A stretch of 64,000 nt of DNA from assembly GCF_002208115.1 (NCBI RefSeq), contig NZ_CP020946.1, forward strand, positions 2,356,001 to 2,420,000, written 5' to 3'. Positions 7,784 through 16,804 of the stretch are shown one piece after another. The position numbers were made by a program, and so were the translations under genes. The notes beneath the pieces were generated by a model. The model was given only the letters and a program-made list of their open reading frames with translations, searched no databases and was not told the DNA's origin. Position 1 is the first letter of the stretch. Each line of letters begins with the position of its first letter. The stretch comes from Bdellovibrio bacteriovorus (GTDB lineage: Bacteria; Bdellovibrionota; Bdellovibrionia; Bdellovibrionales; Bdellovibrionaceae).

Positions 7784-8941
7784 TTACTTGCCGGGTTTAA
7801 TTTCTACGACTTCGGAAACAAGTGTTCCGATTTTGATTTTGGATTCAATTCTCAGGATAAATTTACGATCATCGTCAGACAACCAGATGAAGTTGTCGCC
7901 GATCGGATTTAATTTGCCCTTCAAAGTGATTTTGGGCTGAACCACGATGGCTTTAATCGGACCCAGCTTGGTATTCAGAACTTCACGGCGCAGGGCTTTG
8001 CCAGAGAAGACCAGGTTCTCATTGTCATTCCCGACGCGGAAAGAATACTCTTTGCCCGTTTCCCATTTGAAATTTCGCATATAGTAAATCGCGCTGTACA
8101 CGTTTTGCGTGTAAGGCAGGATTTCCCAGTTCTGTTTTTTCTCTTCTTCCCCGTGATCCTTGGTCACCTTCTTTTCCCAGAAGGTCGCCGTGTTTTTCTC
8201 GACGTCAAAGAGCATCTTGGCTTCACGCAATTGACCGGATTCCTTCACGTGCAACTGGAACACACGAGGCACAAGGTCCTCGTAATCCACGAATGTCTCA
8301 ACGCGGTCTTCAACACTATAGAAGGAACTGAACAAGGAACTGGTACGAATCTCCACCGCAAACGTGTAAGACTTGCGGTTATTGACCATGGCAAAAGGCT
8401 CCACCTTCATGCGAAGCTCCCCGGCAGAGACCTTGAAATAATGCACATCGTGCACCACTTCCTCACCCACCCGGAATGGATCATTCACCGGACGACGGCC
8501 GTTGAATCCTTCGGAATCTTCGATATCAGGCTGGCGGGCCGCAGGCTCGGACGCAGCCGTTTCTGTTTTAGCCGACTTGGTGGTTTTTGCAGCCGGCTTG
8601 CCTGCGGGTGCGGCGGCTGTCTTTGCGGAAGCTTTTACATCCGTTTTTTCAGCGGCCTTCCCTGTTGGTTTTGCAGAAGTTTTGCCGGGGGCTTTGGCAG
8701 AAGTTTTGGCGGCTGACTTATCCGCCGTCCCTGGAGTTTCGGATTTCGCCGCGGCCGGTTCTGCCGCAGTCGATTCCGCAGCGCCCTCTGGTGGGGCTTC
8801 CGTCTGCGGTTTTACAATCGTGACGGCTCCTTCGAACTCCTCGTTTTTTTTCAGTTGATCGGCCTTTTCGTACTTCAAAAATGAAGTCGAACAAGAAACC
8901 AAAAACAATGAAACGAGAGCACCAAGAAGCAGCTTATTCAC
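7784..8941 (-). CDS. DUF3108 family lipoprotein with Ala/Lys/Pro-rich linker
   Basis: 385 aa from a GTG start at 8941, chosen because it gives a GTGA overlap with the upstream acyltransferase stop and puts a lipoprotein signal (LVSLFLVSC) at the N-terminus. Residues about 45-150 are low-complexity repeats of Ala, Lys, Pro and Thr. From about 160 a DUF3108-type domain follows (VGEEVVHDVHYFKVSAGELRM onward), a family of periplasmic or outer-membrane-associated proteins of unknown biochemistry. It is the last gene of the lipid A operon and may serve envelope assembly. Confidence 0.85.
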   Translation of the reverse strand: MNKLLLGALVSLFLVSCSTSFLKYEKADQLKKNEEFEGAVTIVKPQTEAPPEGAAESTAAEPAAAKSETPGTADKSAAKTSAKAPGKTSAKPTGKAAEKTDVKASAKTAAAPAGKPAAKTTKSAKTETAASEPAARQPDIEDSEGFNGRRPVNDPFRVGEEVVHDVHYFKVSAGELRMKVEPFAMVNNRKSYTFAVEIRTSSLFSSFYSVEDRVETFVDYEDLVPRVFQLHVKESGQLREAKMLFDVEKNTATFWEKKVTKDHGEEEKKQNWEILPYTQNVYSAIYYMRNFKWETGKEYSFRVGNDNENLVFSGKALRREVLNTKLGPIKAIVVQPKITLKGKLNPIGDNFIWLSDDDRKFILRIESKIKIGTLVSEVVEIKPGK

Positions 8942-9822
8942 CGGAAGTCCTTCCACCGTCGATGCACCCACATCCATTGTTCAGGGTGCTTTCTGACAAT
9001 CTCTTCAAGCTTGTCGCAATAACTTTGCGTCAAATTCAGAGTCGTCTGGTCTTTATCATCAGTCACACACGAAGCCGTGTCCATCGCTGGCTCCACAACA
9101 ACATGAAGTTTTTTGTCTTCCCCCTCGTAGGTATAGATGGGAAGGACCGGAGCCTTGGTTTTTTGCACGAACAGAGCTAGACCATAGGCTGTGCCTGTCT
9201 TTTTTCCAAAGAAGGAGGTCTCAATACCGAAGGGGCGACCCATAAACTGGTCCAGGACAAAGACCACCGCCGAGTTCTTTTTTAAGGCCTTCAAAATTTC
9301 AAAAGCGTTGTTAGGCGCGTGCGCATCGATGTACTGAACACCTTTCGCCCCGCGAATGGAAAACCACAGATCATCAAACCATTTGGTTTTAAATCTTTTC
9401 GTGATCAGGTTCACGCTCTGCCCGTTTAACACAATCGTGTTACAGGCAAGATCCCCATTCCCCAGGTGCAAAGTCAGGAAGAACATTCCTTTCCCGGCAG
9501 CCCGGGCATTTTCAACGTGCTCCCAGCCGTGAAACACCACATTCTTGGTGATCCACTCAGGCGTCACAGACGGAATGAAAAAGAATTCTGCAAAGTTATA
9601 TCCCAATTGATAAACTGACTCACGCCCCACAGCTTTTCTTTGTTTGTCAGTCCATTCGGGGAAAGCCAGCTTCAGATTGTCCAGCACGATTTTTTTGCGG
9701 AAACCAAAGACATCAAACCACAAGAATCCCACCCAGGATCCGGATTTGCGCAGCCAGCGGCGCGGCACCAGCGAGCTGAAAAAAACCATCAGATTAACGA
9801 AGAACTTGAGTAATAATCTCAT
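8938..9822 (-). CDS. LpxL/HtrB-family lipid A late acyltransferase
   Basis: 294 aa lysophospholipid acyltransferase family member expected to add a secondary acyl chain to the lipid A precursor at the inner membrane. It has one N-terminal hydrophobic segment and the catalytic HX4D motif (HLGNGD in LTLHLGNGDLA). I chose the ATG at 9822 because AAGGGA lies 8-9 bases upstream; a TTG nine codons earlier is also in frame. It overlaps lpxK by 29 bp and the DUF3108 gene by 4 bp. Assignment as LpxL or LpxM cannot be separated by eye. Confidence 0.87.
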   Translation of the reverse strand: MRLLLKFFVNLMVFFSSLVPRRWLRKSGSWVGFLWFDVFGFRKKIVLDNLKLAFPEWTDKQRKAVGRESVYQLGYNFAEFFFIPSVTPEWITKNVVFHGWEHVENARAAGKGMFFLTLHLGNGDLACNTIVLNGQSVNLITKRFKTKWFDDLWFSIRGAKGVQYIDAHAPNNAFEILKALKKNSAVVFVLDQFMGRPFGIETSFFGKKTGTAYGLALFVQKTKAPVLPIYTYEGEDKKLHVVVEPAMDTASCVTDDKDQTTLNLTQSYCDKLEEIVRKHPEQWMWVHRRWKDFR

Positions 9823-10810
9823 GAAGGCGTCCCTTCTTTCCTGCTTCAACCACTTCCAAAGAGGTGCTCCACAGGATGGAGGAGTCGTTGAACAAATGAC
9901 GAAGTTTCACGGCATCTTTGCCGGTGGTCACCAGCATATCCGCCCCTGAAAGTTCGAAGGCTTCGGTGATGTTTTTCACATCCTGAGCCGTGTACTGATG
10001 ATGATCGCGATAGTGCAGGCTCTGTTTGGAGACCTCTCCGATTTCGCCCATCATCTTTTCGAAAACATCGGGTCTTGCAATGGCTGAAACCAGGAACAGT
10101 TTTTTACCCTGAATTTCGCTGCGATTCAAAACCTGTCCGGTTTTGACGTTCTGGCACTTCTGAATCTCGTATCCGAAATAAAGTACTTCCTTGTCTTTGG
10201 GAAGTTTGGCCTCCAAAGCCTTCAAAGCATCCTCTGTGGCCAGATTGCATTTGGATAAAATCAAAACATCCGCACGCTGTATCCCCGCCCACGATTCACG
10301 GGCACGGCCTTCCGGCAGAACCTCGTAATTCGCCAGGCTTTCGGTCGCATCCAGAATGACGATATTCAAATCACGATGCAGGCGGCGGTGCTGGAATCCA
10401 TCATCCACAATCAGCACATCATATTTATGAACTTCCGTGGAATAACGGGCCGTGCGCCATTTGCTGGGGCCCACGTACACTTTCACCTGGGGGTTGGCCT
10501 GAGCCAGCAACACCGGCTCGTCACCGAAGTAACGTGCGGCAAAGGGGTGATCCACATCCACCAGACAAGGCGAATCGGCATCCGCACGATAAGAGCGACT
10601 GATCACCGCCACTTTCTTGCCGTCAGCCACCAGCGACTTCAGACAATAATCAGTGATCGGTGTTTTTCCGGTCCCGCCCACTGTCAGATTTCCGATACTG
10701 ATCACCGGCACCGGCGCCTTGTAGATGCCGAATACACCGCGGTCAAAGAGGCTGTTTTTAACCCCCACGACCTGATCATACAAAAATGACAGTGGACGAA
10801 GATATCTCAT
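9794..10810 (-). CDS. lpxK: Tetraacyldisaccharide 4'-kinase
   Basis: 338 aa. LpxK phosphorylates the 4' position of the tetraacyl disaccharide precursor of lipid A at the inner membrane. The P-loop is visible in SIGNLTVGGTGKTP (about residues 36-49), after the N-terminal membrane-associated helix. Its ATG overlaps the lpxB stop as TGATG. Notable because published chemistry of B. bacteriovorus lipid A reports mannose in place of phosphates; see findings. Confidence 0.95.
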   Translation of the reverse strand: MRYLRPLSFLYDQVVGVKNSLFDRGVFGIYKAPVPVISIGNLTVGGTGKTPITDYCLKSLVADGKKVAVISRSYRADADSPCLVDVDHPFAARYFGDEPVLLAQANPQVKVYVGPSKWRTARYSTEVHKYDVLIVDDGFQHRRLHRDLNIVILDATESLANYEVLPEGRARESWAGIQRADVLILSKCNLATEDALKALEAKLPKDKEVLYFGYEIQKCQNVKTGQVLNRSEIQGKKLFLVSAIARPDVFEKMMGEIGEVSKQSLHYRDHHQYTAQDVKNITEAFELSGADMLVTTGKDAVKLRHLFNDSSILWSTSLEVVEAGKKGRLHEIITQVLR

Positions 10811-11958
10811 CAGACGAAGTACTCTTCCAGGGCTTTGACCACGCGTTCGGTCGCACCCTTGTCACCAAGATACTGACGAACCTGTCCCAGATCCGCGACG
10901 ACAGAGTCGTGATACTTCTTATCCAGAACATAACGTTCCAGCTCAGCCGCCAAATTCTCGGCGGTCACTTCACTTTGGAACAGCTCTGGAACCGCTTCTT
11001 TGTTCAGAATCAAATTCACCAGACCAAAATACTTGGTCCCACGAACGAAGAGCTTCGCAAAAATACCCGTCAGCCACTTCATCTTGTACATGATGACCAT
11101 GGGTTTTTTCAGCAAGCCCACTTGCAGGGTCGCTGTTCCTGAAGCCACCAGCATCATGTCCACCAGATGAATCATTCTAAACGGCTCATCCTTCAGCAAC
11201 ATATAAGGCAGTCGGAAATTTTCCAGACGGTCCTGCATGTACTCTTTCGTGAAGGTCGGAGCAGTCAGGATCAAAACTTTCAGATTCGGGAATTTCTTGG
11301 ACAAAATCCGAGCCGCATCCAATTGAATGTCCAGATGCTGCTTCACTTCCAGACGACGGCTGCCCGGCATCAAGCCCAGCACGATTTCGTTGTCACGAAT
11401 GCCGCACTGGTTGCGGTGAGTTTTGCGGTAATCAAGATCATCAATCAAACGCTCGTCCAATTCATCCAGAAGCGGATGACCGACGAACTCCACCGGCACC
11501 CCGTGCTCTTCATAGAAAGGCACTTCAAACGGGAACAAAACGAATACTTTTTTGCAGTACTTTTTGATCGTCTTCACACGGCCTTTGCGCCATGCCCACA
11601 CCTGCGGGGAAATGTAGTAAACAACCGGGATTCCCAATGCGTGCAGTTTTTTTGCCAGCATCAGGTTGAATTCCGGATAGTCCATCACGATCGCCACTTT
11701 CGGACGGCGCTTTTCAGCCTCCGCCACCAGGCTGTCAAAAACACTTTTCAGATGAGAATAAGCACTGATGATTTCGGCGGCACCGACCACGGCCATCTCT
11801 TCGGATTTACCCAGGCGTTCAAAGCCGATGTCTTCCATATCCTGGCTGCCCACGCCGAAAGCATGAACCTTGCGGCCTTTGCGCTTCCAGGCTTCCAGAA
11901 TTCTTTGGGCATAGGTCACACTGGAGGCTTCCGCCGCCACAATCAGAACCTGATCCAT
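10810..11958 (-). CDS. lpxB: Lipid-A-disaccharide synthase
   Basis: 382 aa GT19 enzyme joining UDP-2,3-diacyl sugar and lipid X into the lipid A disaccharide. Family features: N-terminal VLIVAAEASS, the YYISPQVWAWRKGR segment, VPVEFVGHPLLDE, and the C-terminal GTATLQVGLLKKPMVIMYKM donor-binding region. The length matches LpxB (about 380 aa). It sits directly between the Gfo/Idh/MocA oxidoreductase and lpxK with TGATG junctions on both sides. Confidence 0.97.
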   Translation of the reverse strand: MDQVLIVAAEASSVTYAQRILEAWKRKGRKVHAFGVGSQDMEDIGFERLGKSEEMAVVGAAEIISAYSHLKSVFDSLVAEAEKRRPKVAIVMDYPEFNLMLAKKLHALGIPVVYYISPQVWAWRKGRVKTIKKYCKKVFVLFPFEVPFYEEHGVPVEFVGHPLLDELDERLIDDLDYRKTHRNQCGIRDNEIVLGLMPGSRRLEVKQHLDIQLDAARILSKKFPNLKVLILTAPTFTKEYMQDRLENFRLPYMLLKDEPFRMIHLVDMMLVASGTATLQVGLLKKPMVIMYKMKWLTGIFAKLFVRGTKYFGLVNLILNKEAVPELFQSEVTAENLAAELERYVLDKKYHDSVVADLGQVRQYLGDKGATERVVKALEEYFV

Positions 11959-12884
11959 CAGCCCTCAATCATTCTCTGCACGTCTTCGATGGCTTTCAGG
12001 GCCTTCAACCCGTCAAGACCTGTGACCACAGGTTTTTTATTATTCAAAACACAGTCGATGAAAGCATCCGTTTCCCTTTGCAGGGCATCGGCTTTTTCAA
12101 CGGACCACTTGGTGACCGTCAGGAACTCATCACCACCCGGACCCGGAACCACTTTTTCAAGTTCCAAAGTGCCAGTCTGGGCAAACAGGGTGCAATCATC
12201 CTGCAAAACGCGAATGGATCGCTGGGCCACCGGAGACACACGGCTGACATTGATCATCACCTGCATGCCATTTTTCATTTTGAAAGACACAGAGGCGGTA
12301 TCCAGCTCTTTGGAAATAAGCTTGGTGCCGGTGCCGTTCATGGACTCAATTTCAGAACCCGTCAGCCAGAACAACAGATCCATGTCGTGGATCATCAGGT
12401 CGTGCAAAACGCTGACATCGGAACCGCGCTTGTTGTAAGGCGCCATGCGGTTCAGCTCGATGAATTTTGGATTCTTCAGATGCTTTTGCAGATCATTGAT
12501 CGCCGGGTTGAATCTTTCGATATGCCCGACGGCCACTTTCACATTCTTTTTTTCAGCCAAAGCCAGAAGCTCTTCAGCCTGCTGAACGGTGGCGGTGATC
12601 GGCTTTTCAACGTTCACATGAACGCCGTTTTCCACGAACAACTTTGCCAGTTCAAAGTGACTCAGCGTACTTGCCGCAATGGTCACCAGATCCACATGAC
12701 CAATCAAATCCTGGGGCTTGTGGAAGCTTTTTACCCCCAGCTCCATGGCGATTTTATCAGCCTGTGCCGGGAAGTGATCACACACCCCGACCAGTTCCAC
12801 GTTCGGATTGTTTTTGTATTTCTGAGCGTGGAATTTACCCAGGTAACCAACCCCGATAACCGCGCCACGAAGTTTATTACTCAT
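11958..12884 (-). CDS. Gfo/Idh/MocA oxidoreductase, probable UDP-GlcNAc 3-dehydrogenase (GnnA-like)
   Basis: 308 aa NAD(P)-dependent oxidoreductase: Rossmann motif GVGYLGKFHAQKY at the N-terminus, the family EKP motif in NVEKPITAT, and a conserved HDMDLLFWL helix. Its position between lpxA (8-bp overlap) and lpxB (TGATG) points to lipid A. In Acidithiobacillus, GnnA of this family oxidises UDP-GlcNAc at C3 before transamination by GnnB to the 2,3-diamino sugar. B. bacteriovorus lipid A is reported to have a 2,3-diamino-2,3-dideoxyglucose backbone, which fits. No GnnB-like aminotransferase is adjacent. Family assignment is firm; the substrate is inference. Confidence 0.85.
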   Translation of the reverse strand: MSNKLRGAVIGVGYLGKFHAQKYKNNPNVELVGVCDHFPAQADKIAMELGVKSFHKPQDLIGHVDLVTIAASTLSHFELAKLFVENGVHVNVEKPITATVQQAEELLALAEKKNVKVAVGHIERFNPAINDLQKHLKNPKFIELNRMAPYNKRGSDVSVLHDLMIHDMDLLFWLTGSEIESMNGTGTKLISKELDTASVSFKMKNGMQVMINVSRVSPVAQRSIRVLQDDCTLFAQTGTLELEKVVPGPGGDEFLTVTKWSVEKADALQRETDAFIDCVLNNKKPVVTGLDGLKALKAIEDVQRMIEG

Positions 12885-13701
12885 CGTCCTGCCATCCTTT
12901 AGGGCTTCTGTCCACGGCGATACCGCGTTTGGAAGAGCGAATGAAGTTCACGAAGTACTCAATGTTCGGGCTCATCGTGCACTCGTTCAGGATGCGTTCA
13001 ATGCCTTCCTCAACGGTGTGAGAACCCATGATGATGATACGGATGGCTTTGTGCACGTTTGCGATTTCTTCACGTGGGAAGCCTTTGCGCGCCAGACCGA
13101 TCTTGTTGGTCGCGCGGATTGTCGCGTAAGTGCCCTGAGCACGACAGAACGGCAGGATGTCCTTGTTCACGATGGAAGAACCCGCCACGAAAGCACCACG
13201 GCCCACTTTGGTGAACTGGTTGAAGGCGCACACGCCCCCGATGGTCACACCGTCTTCAATTTCACAGTGTCCGCCCAAATGGGAGTTGTTGGCGATGGTG
13301 ACATTGTTGCCGACTTTGCAGTCATGCCCGATGTGCGTGTAAGCCATGAAGTAGCCGTTGTTGCCGATTTCTGTTTTGCCGTCACCCTTGCTGGTCGCAA
13401 GATTGGCGGTGGAGAATTCACGGAACGTGTTGTTGTTACCGATAATCAATTTGGTTGGTTCACCTTTGTAGGAAAGGTCCTGAGGAGCCCCTCCGATTAC
13501 AGCACCGGGACAGAAATGATTGTTTTCGCCGATTTCGATAATGCCGTGACGGGAACCCAGTGTCACATGACCTTCGACGAATGTGCCTTTGCCAATAAAA
13601 CCTTTGCCTTGAATCAAACAGTAAGGGCCGATTTCAACATCGTCGGCGATTTGGATGTCCGGAGAAATAACACTGCTTGAATGAATCTTATAATTTGCCA
13701 T
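12877..13701 (-). CDS. lpxA: Acyl-ACP:UDP-sugar acyltransferase (LpxA)
   Basis: 274 aa left-handed beta-helix acyltransferase. Hexapeptide repeats cover residues about 1-190 (for example IGENNHFCPGAVIGGAPQDL and VGNNVTIANNSHLGGHCEI). The catalytic-His region reads YTHIGHDCKVGN, matching HIAHDC of E. coli LpxA. A helical C-terminal domain follows. It catalyses the first acylation of the lipid A sugar. Given the adjacent GnnA-like gene, the enzyme may N-acylate UDP-GlcNAc3N instead of O-acylating UDP-GlcNAc. AGGA lies about 9 bases before the ATG. Confidence 0.95.
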   Translation of the reverse strand: MANYKIHSSSVISPDIQIADDVEIGPYCLIQGKGFIGKGTFVEGHVTLGSRHGIIEIGENNHFCPGAVIGGAPQDLSYKGEPTKLIIGNNNTFREFSTANLATSKGDGKTEIGNNGYFMAYTHIGHDCKVGNNVTIANNSHLGGHCEIEDGVTIGGVCAFNQFTKVGRGAFVAGSSIVNKDILPFCRAQGTYATIRATNKIGLARKGFPREEIANVHKAIRIIIMGSHTVEEGIERILNECTMSPNIEYFVNFIRSSKRGIAVDRSPKGWQDDE

Positions 13702-13720
13702 GAACTTCTATTCCTAAACT

Positions 13721-13745
13721 AAAAAAGGGCCTTTGCAGGCCCTTT
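13721..13745 (-). terminator. Rho-independent terminator downstream of skp
   Basis: Perfect 9-bp stem (AAAGGGCCT / AGGCCCTTT) with a 4-base loop. On the minus strand it is followed by a run of six T. It lies between skp and lpxA, separating the bamA-skp unit from the lpxA operon, or attenuating read-through into it. Confidence 0.85.
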
Positions 13746-13759
13746 CGTTTTCTTATCAA

Positions 13760-14260
13760 CTACTTTTCTTTTTCGAAGGCCGCGATTACTTCAGTTGTCA
13801 GGTCCGCATCCGCAGTTGCGTAAAGAACCATTTGAGAGTTCTCCAGCACCAGAGTGTAACCTTTGTCTTTCGCAAGTTTCGCGATCACTTTTTTCATTTT
13901 CTCAAGAATCGGAGCTGTCAGCTCGCGCTCTTTTTTCTGAATTTCGATCTGGCTTTTACCAACCACATCACGATACTTCAGCATTTCTTCCTGGAATTCA
14001 GCTTGTTTTTTACCAAGCGCTTCTTCAGAAAGAACAGACTTTTTCTTTTCCAGGTCTTCACCCATCTTTTTCAAGTCTGCTTCTTTTTTCTCCAGCTCTT
14101 TTTTCTTTTTGTTGAACTCTGTTTCAAGTTCCGTTTTTGCTTTCTTACCCGCAGAAGTGGACTGAATAGCTTTTTGCATATCAACAAATCCAACTTTTGC
14201 CTGAGCTTGTGCCAAAGATGCCGTCAGTAGCATGCTCAACACGATCAACATTTTCTTCAT
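13760..14260 (-). CDS. skp: Skp/OmpH periplasmic chaperone
   Basis: 166 aa with a signal peptide (MKKMLIVLSMLLTASLAQAQA) and VGFVDMQKAI at the mature N-terminus, as in Skp. A long, highly charged coiled-coil hairpin covers residues about 40-120, and the family C-terminal strand AKDKGYTLVLENS follows. Skp escorts unfolded outer-membrane proteins to the BAM complex. It lies directly downstream of bamA. AAGGAGG is well placed before the ATG. Confidence 0.93.
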   Translation of the reverse strand: MKKMLIVLSMLLTASLAQAQAKVGFVDMQKAIQSTSAGKKAKTELETEFNKKKKELEKKEADLKKMGEDLEKKKSVLSEEALGKKQAEFQEEMLKYRDVVGKSQIEIQKKERELTAPILEKMKKVIAKLAKDKGYTLVLENSQMVLYATADADLTTEVIAAFEKEK

Positions 14261-14404: not shown

Positions 14405-16804
14405 TTAGAAACTAGGCCCGATGGAGAATTCGAAGACGGTGGCGTCTTGGTAAGCTGGGTTGCGGTTCAGTGGGAAGCCCCATTCGAAGCGCAATACACC
14501 AATTGGTGAATACCAGCGAATACCGAAGCCGACGTCCGCGAAGAAGTTATTGTCTGAAAGGACATCATCCGCGGCACCGATATCGAAGAATCCAGCACCC
14601 ATGATGCCAGCTTCTTTAACCAAAGGGAACTGTAATTCCGTCTGGTACATGGCCTGCTGAACGCCCCCGTAGAAACGCCAAGCTTTCTCACGAGCTTCCG
14701 CCTCGGACTTACCCTCGGCGATCAGATCGTTATAGATCATCTCAGAGAACTTCATTTTACCCACGCGATAGGATCTATAACCACGCAAAGAGTATGGTCC
14801 ACCCAGAAGGTACAATTCAGAGAACGGAACTTCCTGACCATCCAACCCGTCGATACGGGAATATTGGATGTTATTTCGCCACACTACGTCCCAGAACAGG
14901 TTCTTATAGTATCTGAAGTTGGCGTTACCGCGAGTATACTTCAGATCTCCACCCAGACCGGCGTATTCATAAGACGCGCTGGAATAGATCCCTTTGGTCG
15001 GCATCTGACGGTCATTACGCGTGTCATATTCAACAGTTCCAGTCATGGAGCTGGTCACACCGGAAGCCGATTCCAACGGGAACAGATCCGGATCCGTGAT
15101 CAACTTGCCTTCACTGTCGTATTTTTTAGACAGTTTGGTGTCGTCATATTTGTACTTCAGGAAACCACGCGTGTACTCAGCCAGCGGGTGACCCAAACGA
15201 ATTGCACCACCTGTGTGATTTTCGTCATAGTCCACACGTCCAGTGTTCGCGCTTTGATAAAGATCCGCCCCCAAAGACCAAAGGGTGTCTCGGAAGTACG
15301 GCTCAGTGAAGGACAAGCTGTAGTAACTGCCCGTGTTGCTCAAATTCAAGGACGCGCCCAGATTCTGACCTTTACCCAGGAAGTTCGCCTGACTGATGGA
15401 ACCCTGCAAAGTGAAACCCTGGGAAGTACCGTACCCGGCACCCAACTGGATCTGACCGGTGTTACGCTCTTTCACGGAAATGTCCACGTTCATAACTTCC
15501 GTGCGTTCCGGATCGATGGAGGTCTTGAAGTTCACCTCCTCAAAGAAGCCCAGACGCTGGATGTTTTCCAAAGACTGACGACGGCGCGTTTCGTTGTACA
15601 GCTCGCCCTCATGAACTTTCAACTCACGACGGATGACCTTGTCACGGGTCTTGGAGTTGCCGACCATGTTGATCTTACCGAAGTAAACTTTGTTACCCTT
15701 GTCGAATTCAAACACCAGATCCACGCGACGTTCTTTGTCGTTGAAACGAGTGCGCGGAATAACGTTGGCATAGGCATAGCCCAAGTCACCATACTTCGCC
15801 GTCAGATCACTGATGTCTTTTTGCAACACATCGTAAGCAAAAACGCCGTTGTCATCGATCTTGATCACTTCGCGCAATTCGGATTTCGGGAACAAAAGAT
15901 CGCCGGCAAAATCCACGTCGCCGACATTGTACTGCTCACCCTCTTCAATTCGGATGGTGATATAAATGTTCTTTTTATCCGGTGTCACCGTCACCTGCGG
16001 ACGATCAACCTTGGCTTGAACATAACCCTGATTCCAGTAAAGGAAGCGAAGGATCTGAACATCACGTTCAAACATCTCCTGCTTGTACTGACCAGAGCCG
16101 CTGATGCCAGAGAAGAAGCCGCCCTCTTGAGTCAGCATCTTGCTTTTCAGCGAGCTGTCACCCATGTGGTTGTTACCCAGGAAGGTGATCTTTTTAACTT
16201 TTACTTTATCATTTTCACGGATCTTAAAGACCAGACGGACAGTTTCGTCTTTGGTGACCTCTTGAACTTCTGAATCAATCTTGGCCAGGAAGAAACCCTT
16301 GTCTTCATAAAGCTTTTGGATTTTCTCCACCGCTTCTTTAACTTTGGCCATATTCAAAAGCTGGTAAGGCTTGATGCCTGTGGCATCGGCAATATCTTCA
16401 GACTTTACTTCACTGTTGCCTTCATAAGTGATTTCAACTACAGAAGGTTTTTCCAAAACAGTGTACGTCAGCGTGACGTCTTTGCCGGTGGTCTTGCGAT
16501 CCACTTGGATGTCGTTGAAGAAGCCCAGATTGAACAACGCCTGCACATCTTCACGGATGTGCTGAGTGCTGTACTGCTCGCCCACTTTGGTGGTGATCTT
16601 TGCAAGAATGGCGTCTTTTTCAATTTTACGATTGCCGGCAACTTCGATGGTTTTAACGATCAAACCGGATGTCGCATCCGATGCTTCCGCAGCCGCAACA
16701 GGAGCTTTGGCCTTGGCGTTTTTCTTTTTGGCAGGCTGAGCTACCACCGTCGAAGTCATGAATGTGATTAACAGTGCACAAAGAAGCTTACTCAAAGTTC
16801 CCAT
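14405..16804 (-). CDS. bamA: Outer-membrane protein assembly factor BamA
   Basis: 799 aa Omp85 protein, the core of the BAM complex inserting beta-barrels into the outer membrane. A signal peptide ends near VVAQPAKKK. Five POTRA-like domains cover about 45-445; the C-terminal barrel from about 450 includes the conserved loop-6 motif as LRGYRSYRVG and ends in EFSIGPSF, with the terminal Phe expected of barrel proteins. The N-terminus after the signal is Lys/Ala-rich. It is followed by skp. GGGG precedes the ATG. Confidence 0.97.
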   Translation of the reverse strand: MGTLSKLLCALLITFMTSTVVAQPAKKKNAKAKAPVAAAEASDATSGLIVKTIEVAGNRKIEKDAILAKITTKVGEQYSTQHIREDVQALFNLGFFNDIQVDRKTTGKDVTLTYTVLEKPSVVEITYEGNSEVKSEDIADATGIKPYQLLNMAKVKEAVEKIQKLYEDKGFFLAKIDSEVQEVTKDETVRLVFKIRENDKVKVKKITFLGNNHMGDSSLKSKMLTQEGGFFSGISGSGQYKQEMFERDVQILRFLYWNQGYVQAKVDRPQVTVTPDKKNIYITIRIEEGEQYNVGDVDFAGDLLFPKSELREVIKIDDNGVFAYDVLQKDISDLTAKYGDLGYAYANVIPRTRFNDKERRVDLVFEFDKGNKVYFGKINMVGNSKTRDKVIRRELKVHEGELYNETRRRQSLENIQRLGFFEEVNFKTSIDPERTEVMNVDISVKERNTGQIQLGAGYGTSQGFTLQGSISQANFLGKGQNLGASLNLSNTGSYYSLSFTEPYFRDTLWSLGADLYQSANTGRVDYDENHTGGAIRLGHPLAEYTRGFLKYKYDDTKLSKKYDSEGKLITDPDLFPLESASGVTSSMTGTVEYDTRNDRQMPTKGIYSSASYEYAGLGGDLKYTRGNANFRYYKNLFWDVVWRNNIQYSRIDGLDGQEVPFSELYLLGGPYSLRGYRSYRVGKMKFSEMIYNDLIAEGKSEAEAREKAWRFYGGVQQAMYQTELQFPLVKEAGIMGAGFFDIGAADDVLSDNNFFADVGFGIRWYSPIGVLRFEWGFPLNRNPAYQDATVFEFSIGPSF

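Follow-up and report, generated by a model that had tools for sequence, protein, structure and literature searches.

The pathway to lipid A built on 2,3-diamino-2,3-dideoxyglucose (GlcN3N) is itself already known, and the closest described counterpart of the locus analyzed here is the GnnA/GnnB pair of Acidithiobacillus ferrooxidans. The backbone of Bdellovibrio bacteriovorus HD100 lipid A reportedly consists of this same sugar, a finding attributed to Schwudke 2003. Excerpts from the literature describe the lipid A of B. bacteriovorus as neutral and carrying mannose instead of phosphate, and a passage in PMC8036547 places Bacteriovorax stolpii among the GlcN3N makers. A passage in PMC5644692 describes rhizobia whose gnnA and gnnB are separated from the lpx cluster or from one another; their separation is therefore nothing new in itself. 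A review excerpt names an altered outer membrane as one proposed reason why Bdellovibrio spares itself from predation, and variation in the synthesis of this membrane within the genus is therefore of interest. The GnnA of Bdellovibrio is of the same family and fold as that of A. ferrooxidans. In contrast, its gnnB candidate lies outside the lpx cluster, belongs to a distant DegT lineage, and occurs in two mutually replacing forms. This partner swap is the new part: no description of a displaced aminotransferase tracking a kdsA switch appeared among the literature matches listed for Bdellovibrio gnn, lpx, GlcN3N, and kdsA.

The window, i.e., the whole stretch of 64,000 nucleotides of B. bacteriovorus DNA that was analyzed, carries on its minus strand two conserved neighbors of the lipid A genes, bamA (14405..16804) and a gene for an skp/OmpH-like chaperone (13760..14260). 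These are followed by lpxA (12877..13701; UDP-GlcNAc(3N) acyltransferase, 274 aa), a gnnA-like UDP-GlcNAc 3-dehydrogenase gene of the Gfo/Idh/MocA family (11958..12884; 308 aa), lpxB (10810..11958; lipid A disaccharide synthase), lpxK (9794..10810; lipid A 4′-kinase), and a gene for an LpxL-type late acyltransferase (8938..9849). Profile searches place LpxA (TIGR01852, 284 bits against a cut-off of 231) and LpxB (TIGR00215, 256 bits against a cut-off of 190) in their families. The original prediction had described a Gfo/Idh/MocA gene overlapping both lpxA and lpxB, and the overlaps indeed amount to 8 bases (ATGAGTAA) and 1 base (TGATG), respectively; the span that it gave, 11958-13701, corresponds exactly to gnnA plus lpxA. 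The Gfo/Idh/MocA gene is gnnA. Its product matches PF01408 with 101 bits, and its best PDB sequence match, at 159 bits compared with 89 bits for the next, is 7bvj, entitled UDP-N-acetylglucosamine 3-dehydrogenase GnnA from Acidithiobacillus ferrooxidans. The fold predicted for the protein (mean pLDDT 96.4) likewise retrieves 7bvj as the best Foldseek match (E 1.6e-33), and the VIA-align superposition on this entry (Z 40.3, rmsd 1.6, 296 aligned) exceeds that on the next non-GnnA entry (Z 35.7). The motifs EKP and DxMIHD, common to A. ferrooxidans GnnA, are preserved, and E93, K94, P95, D162, and M164-D167 do not vary in any of the 16 rows compared. The best NCBIfam family, NF040723 (archaeal UDP-GlcNAc 3-dehydrogenase), gave a score of 196 bits, short of the 450 that its cut-off demands. 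Only two Gfo/Idh/MocA matches occur in the genome; the second protein (L012:7734-8867) was rejected as GnnA, being of another type, nearest to Gfo6 but below cut-off, with no lpx neighbors seen. The predicted identity as a GnnA-like dehydrogenase is thus borne out by both sequence and fold, and the wider reading of a gnnA serving a 2,3-diamino lipid A route, with presumed enzyme activities, is supported.

The order lpxA-gnnA-lpxB-lpxK is kept in all 20 loci chosen across six families of the taxonomic order, and lpxA-gnnA-lpxB in all 20 further loci of the phylum outside the order, 18 of which come from one family, f12. For this reason, the arrangement is more than chance. Within the second group, 0.6 kb separates lpxA from gnnA at one locus (L291). 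Some variation was also observed around these genes. The Bdellovibrio gap between skp and lpxA (13702-13759) is devoid of the fabZ-like gene that other families carry there (FabZ above cut-off in L095, with similar ORFs in L091, L101, L285, and L304), and in family f15 the lpxB frame extends to 778 aa (L304 7063), which suggests a fusion. As had been anticipated, no gnnB adjoins gnnA in the source genome or in any of these 40 loci. Elsewhere the two genes do meet: in a set of 80 gnnA loci, kept as a subset of 588 found in named genomes, a DegT gene lies directly downstream of gnnA in 25, nearly all from other phyla, and one further DegT gene lies at a distance of 4.5 kb.

The expectation that the aminotransferase is encoded elsewhere was followed up by a GnnB search of the genome, in which two DegT proteins matched over their full length and five further matches were weak and partial. 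One full-length protein (L010:8461-9597) was rejected as GnnB, since it scores 574 bits against a WecE-type cut-off of 375 and its gene lies beside rmlA- and rmlB-like genes. By elimination, the other, a protein of 372 aa hereafter termed B and encoded outside the window (genome 1665186-1666304 on contig C1; L011:8187-9305), is the GnnB candidate of the genome. A complete lack of GnnB homologues, which the original prediction had named as its refutation, was thus not observed. B exceeds no family cut-off; its best PDB match is WbpE (177 bits). Other members of the genus carry a different DegT protein, termed C, which is about 29-30% identical to B. B keeps 48 of the 71 columns common to C, gnnA-adjacent GnnB, and WbpE, including the PLP lysine (K191), which together with the acidic PLP residue D162 is present in 33 of 33 B sequences. 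WbpE is a UDP-3-keto-GlcNAcA aminotransferase. Its residues His 213, Asn 227, and Arg 229, which we take to bind the sugar nucleotide, are shared by B and C and missing from the WecE-like protein. In a quick tree with SH-aLRT support only, in which B sits on a long branch, 25 of 26 DegT proteins from gnnA loci form one clade (SH-aLRT 99) that contains neither B nor C, so that orthology of B and C to the gnnA-adjacent GnnB was not found. Nor does B adjoin gnnA at any locus examined.

B probably performs the step after GnnA, with a presumed substrate and activity. In the proposed pathway, GnnA would oxidize the 3-hydroxyl of UDP-GlcNAc with NAD, as expected from its family. A PLP aminotransferase, B in the source genome, would then make UDP-GlcNAc3N, which the product of the overlapping lpxA would acylate on N3; the ordinary Lpx steps would come after. 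B would accordingly be the proposed aminotransferase for the unusual lipid A of the type predator. An alternative that we regard as unlikely would make B and C aminotransferases of a WbpE-like or Kdo-linked kind that supply a sugar of the core or O-antigen, the real GnnB being another enzyme, e.g., the WecE-like protein in a second job. WbpE is the top PDB match of C as well (426 bits), C lies beside kdsA throughout, as does B in G005, and C-like genes are found in sugar clusters of G009, G015, and G023. The same 3-amination chemistry is in fact proposed for WbpE and for B and C, but neither B nor C has a WbpB-type partner beside it in the loci read from the genus, and the second Gfo/Idh/MocA protein of the genome is of another type. 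The absence of the shared His, Asn, and Arg from the WecE-like protein and the tracking of GnnA by B in f12 (see below) also argue against it.

The two aminotransferases are complementary within the genus. In a search of 140 genomes of the order, B at 85-100% identity turned up in G035 and in 13 of 24 Bdellovibrio genomes, including the source genome, all other B matches listed being at most 39% identical. The remaining 11 Bdellovibrio genomes carry C, so that one or the other is present in 24 of 24. Some genomes of B type, to which G004 and G009 belong, have relatives of C in addition: one at 77% identity and without an adjoining kdsA in G015, and others at 52-54% in sugar clusters of G009 and G023. 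Across the family, C lies directly beside kdsA, forming an operon, in 28 of 30 loci; the two remaining loci are the additional C relative of G015 and one at the end of a contig. Each Bdellovibrio genome encodes one KdsA above cut-off, and these fall into two types that are 47.5% identical. The higher-scoring type 2 accompanies B in 13 of 13 genomes and the lower-scoring type 1 accompanies C in 11 of 11. The gene for B itself lies at varying distances from kdsA2, namely 78 bases in G005, 4.7 kb in the source genome, and more than 0.8 Mb in four others of the nine genomes measured. In G014, B occupies the slot of C, flanked by the same two neighbors that enclose C-kdsA elsewhere. The flanking genes of the C-kdsA operon (L105 3149-4603 and 6769-7764) encode a ManC-type GDP-mannose pyrophosphorylase and an LPG_synthase_TM membrane protein, which may contribute to decorating lipid A with mannose.

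Co-occurrence with GnnA was read by hand in 102 genomes of the order (completeness of 90% or more, contamination of 5% or less), with thresholds of E 1e-33 or better for GnnA and E 1e-80 or better for C. GnnA is present in 85 of these genomes, 83 of which carry B or C (in G079, in two pieces). The other two, G066 and G127, are nearly complete, have GnnA in the lpx cluster (L086 and L091), and lack both aminotransferases, which counts against the assignment of B and C as GnnB. Among the 17 genomes below the GnnA threshold, 13 have neither B nor C and four have C: G040, where GnnA is cut short, G128, where it is partial, G057, and G109, where a C-like gene lies beside another Gfo/Idh/MocA gene. 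Since several of the order genomes without B or C are small and may lack LPS, the co-occurrence may in part be a sign of LPS being made at all. Sugar clusters (L116-L118) likewise contain C-like proteins, and the C family is therefore not confined to GnnB. Within f12, GnnA occurs in 47 of 48 genomes with B as opposed to 57 of 81 without it, and in 16 of 24 with C-type matches as opposed to 88 of 105 without, these being related and not independent genomes; in this family, GnnA accordingly accompanies B and not the C-type matches. However, 46 of the 104 f12 genomes with GnnA have neither B nor C at the thresholds used, which again counts against B as GnnB. It is conceivable that GnnA works by itself or serves a different pathway, that lipid A contains ordinary glucosamine, and that the gene order is a relic, as the example of G127 would suggest, a genome that is 100% complete and yields no match to B or C at E 0.001 despite its GnnA. 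We consider this highly improbable given the tight overlaps and phylum-wide order of lpxA-gnnA-lpxB, the B or C found in nearly every good GnnA-bearing genome of the order, and the GlcN3N that HD100 lipid A is said to contain.

B appears, from its sequence relationships, to have come from f12, another family of the phylum, and to have replaced the native C, a substitution that the original prediction had not envisaged. Among 368 phylum genomes searched, 48 of the 129 from f12 encode relatives of B at 54-81% identity (a hand count that leaves out G190 at 39%), and family f29 adds one more at 50%. In a tree of 33 B sequences that includes 19 of the 48 f12 proteins, the Bdellovibrio proteins and that of G035 form one clade (support 94/97), which groups with one part of the f12 proteins (100/99) and is separate from the remaining f12 sequences. 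Plasmid relatives of B above 34% identity were absent from the best 20 of 823 records listed. We infer that f12 is a Bacteriovoracia-like family, the one to which Bacteriovorax stolpii belongs. Its lipid A cluster reads bamA-skp-lpxD-fabZ-like-lpxA-gnnA-lpxB-lpxK, with B apart from the cluster as in Bdellovibrio; in contrast, the Bdellovibrio cluster is without fabZ and lpxD, and B is a later arrival there. When the B or C state is laid on a DNA tree of lpxA-gnnA-lpxB (30 rows, without G020 and not counting G066), five changes are needed, at least four of which are forced by well-supported branches; the state has thus changed repeatedly.

Taken together, it seems likely that the gene in the window is gnnA and that B is the GnnB of the source genome. 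B would have reached Bdellovibrio from the f12 lineage, within the same phylum, and taken the place of C as kdsA, the operon partner of C, switched type. The implication is that in a core pathway of the outer membrane an enzyme may give way to another of about 29% identity, with the partner that acts before it being retained, and that the swap of the aminotransferase has happened repeatedly, together with the kdsA switch. Whether the gnnB-kdsA pair constitutes a recurrently exchanged cassette of predatory Bdellovibrio, with at least four changes of state on the tree and with an aminotransferase of another lineage of the phylum taking over from the native one beside an unmoved gnnA, is a more tentative matter, and we would put its chances just short of even.

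Two further features of the cluster concern its other lipid A enzymes. lpxK (9794-10810) is retained although mannose is reported to replace phosphate in HD100 lipid A, and phosphatases and mannosyltransferases should therefore exist elsewhere. LpxA keeps its catalytic histidine, and in a comparison set without any Acidithiobacillus LpxA, one pocket position may hint at a GlcN3N preference: I or V occupies the residue corresponding to E. coli position 200 in 60 of 65 GnnA-linked LpxA proteins, and V is also present in C. jejuni and Leptospira, as opposed to E in the enzymes of E. coli and Burkholderia and H in that of H. pylori. At the position of E. coli His160, the LpxA of the window has Asn, and the phylum mostly Asn, Ser, or Thr; His is found there in 19 of 23 other GnnA-linked LpxA proteins.
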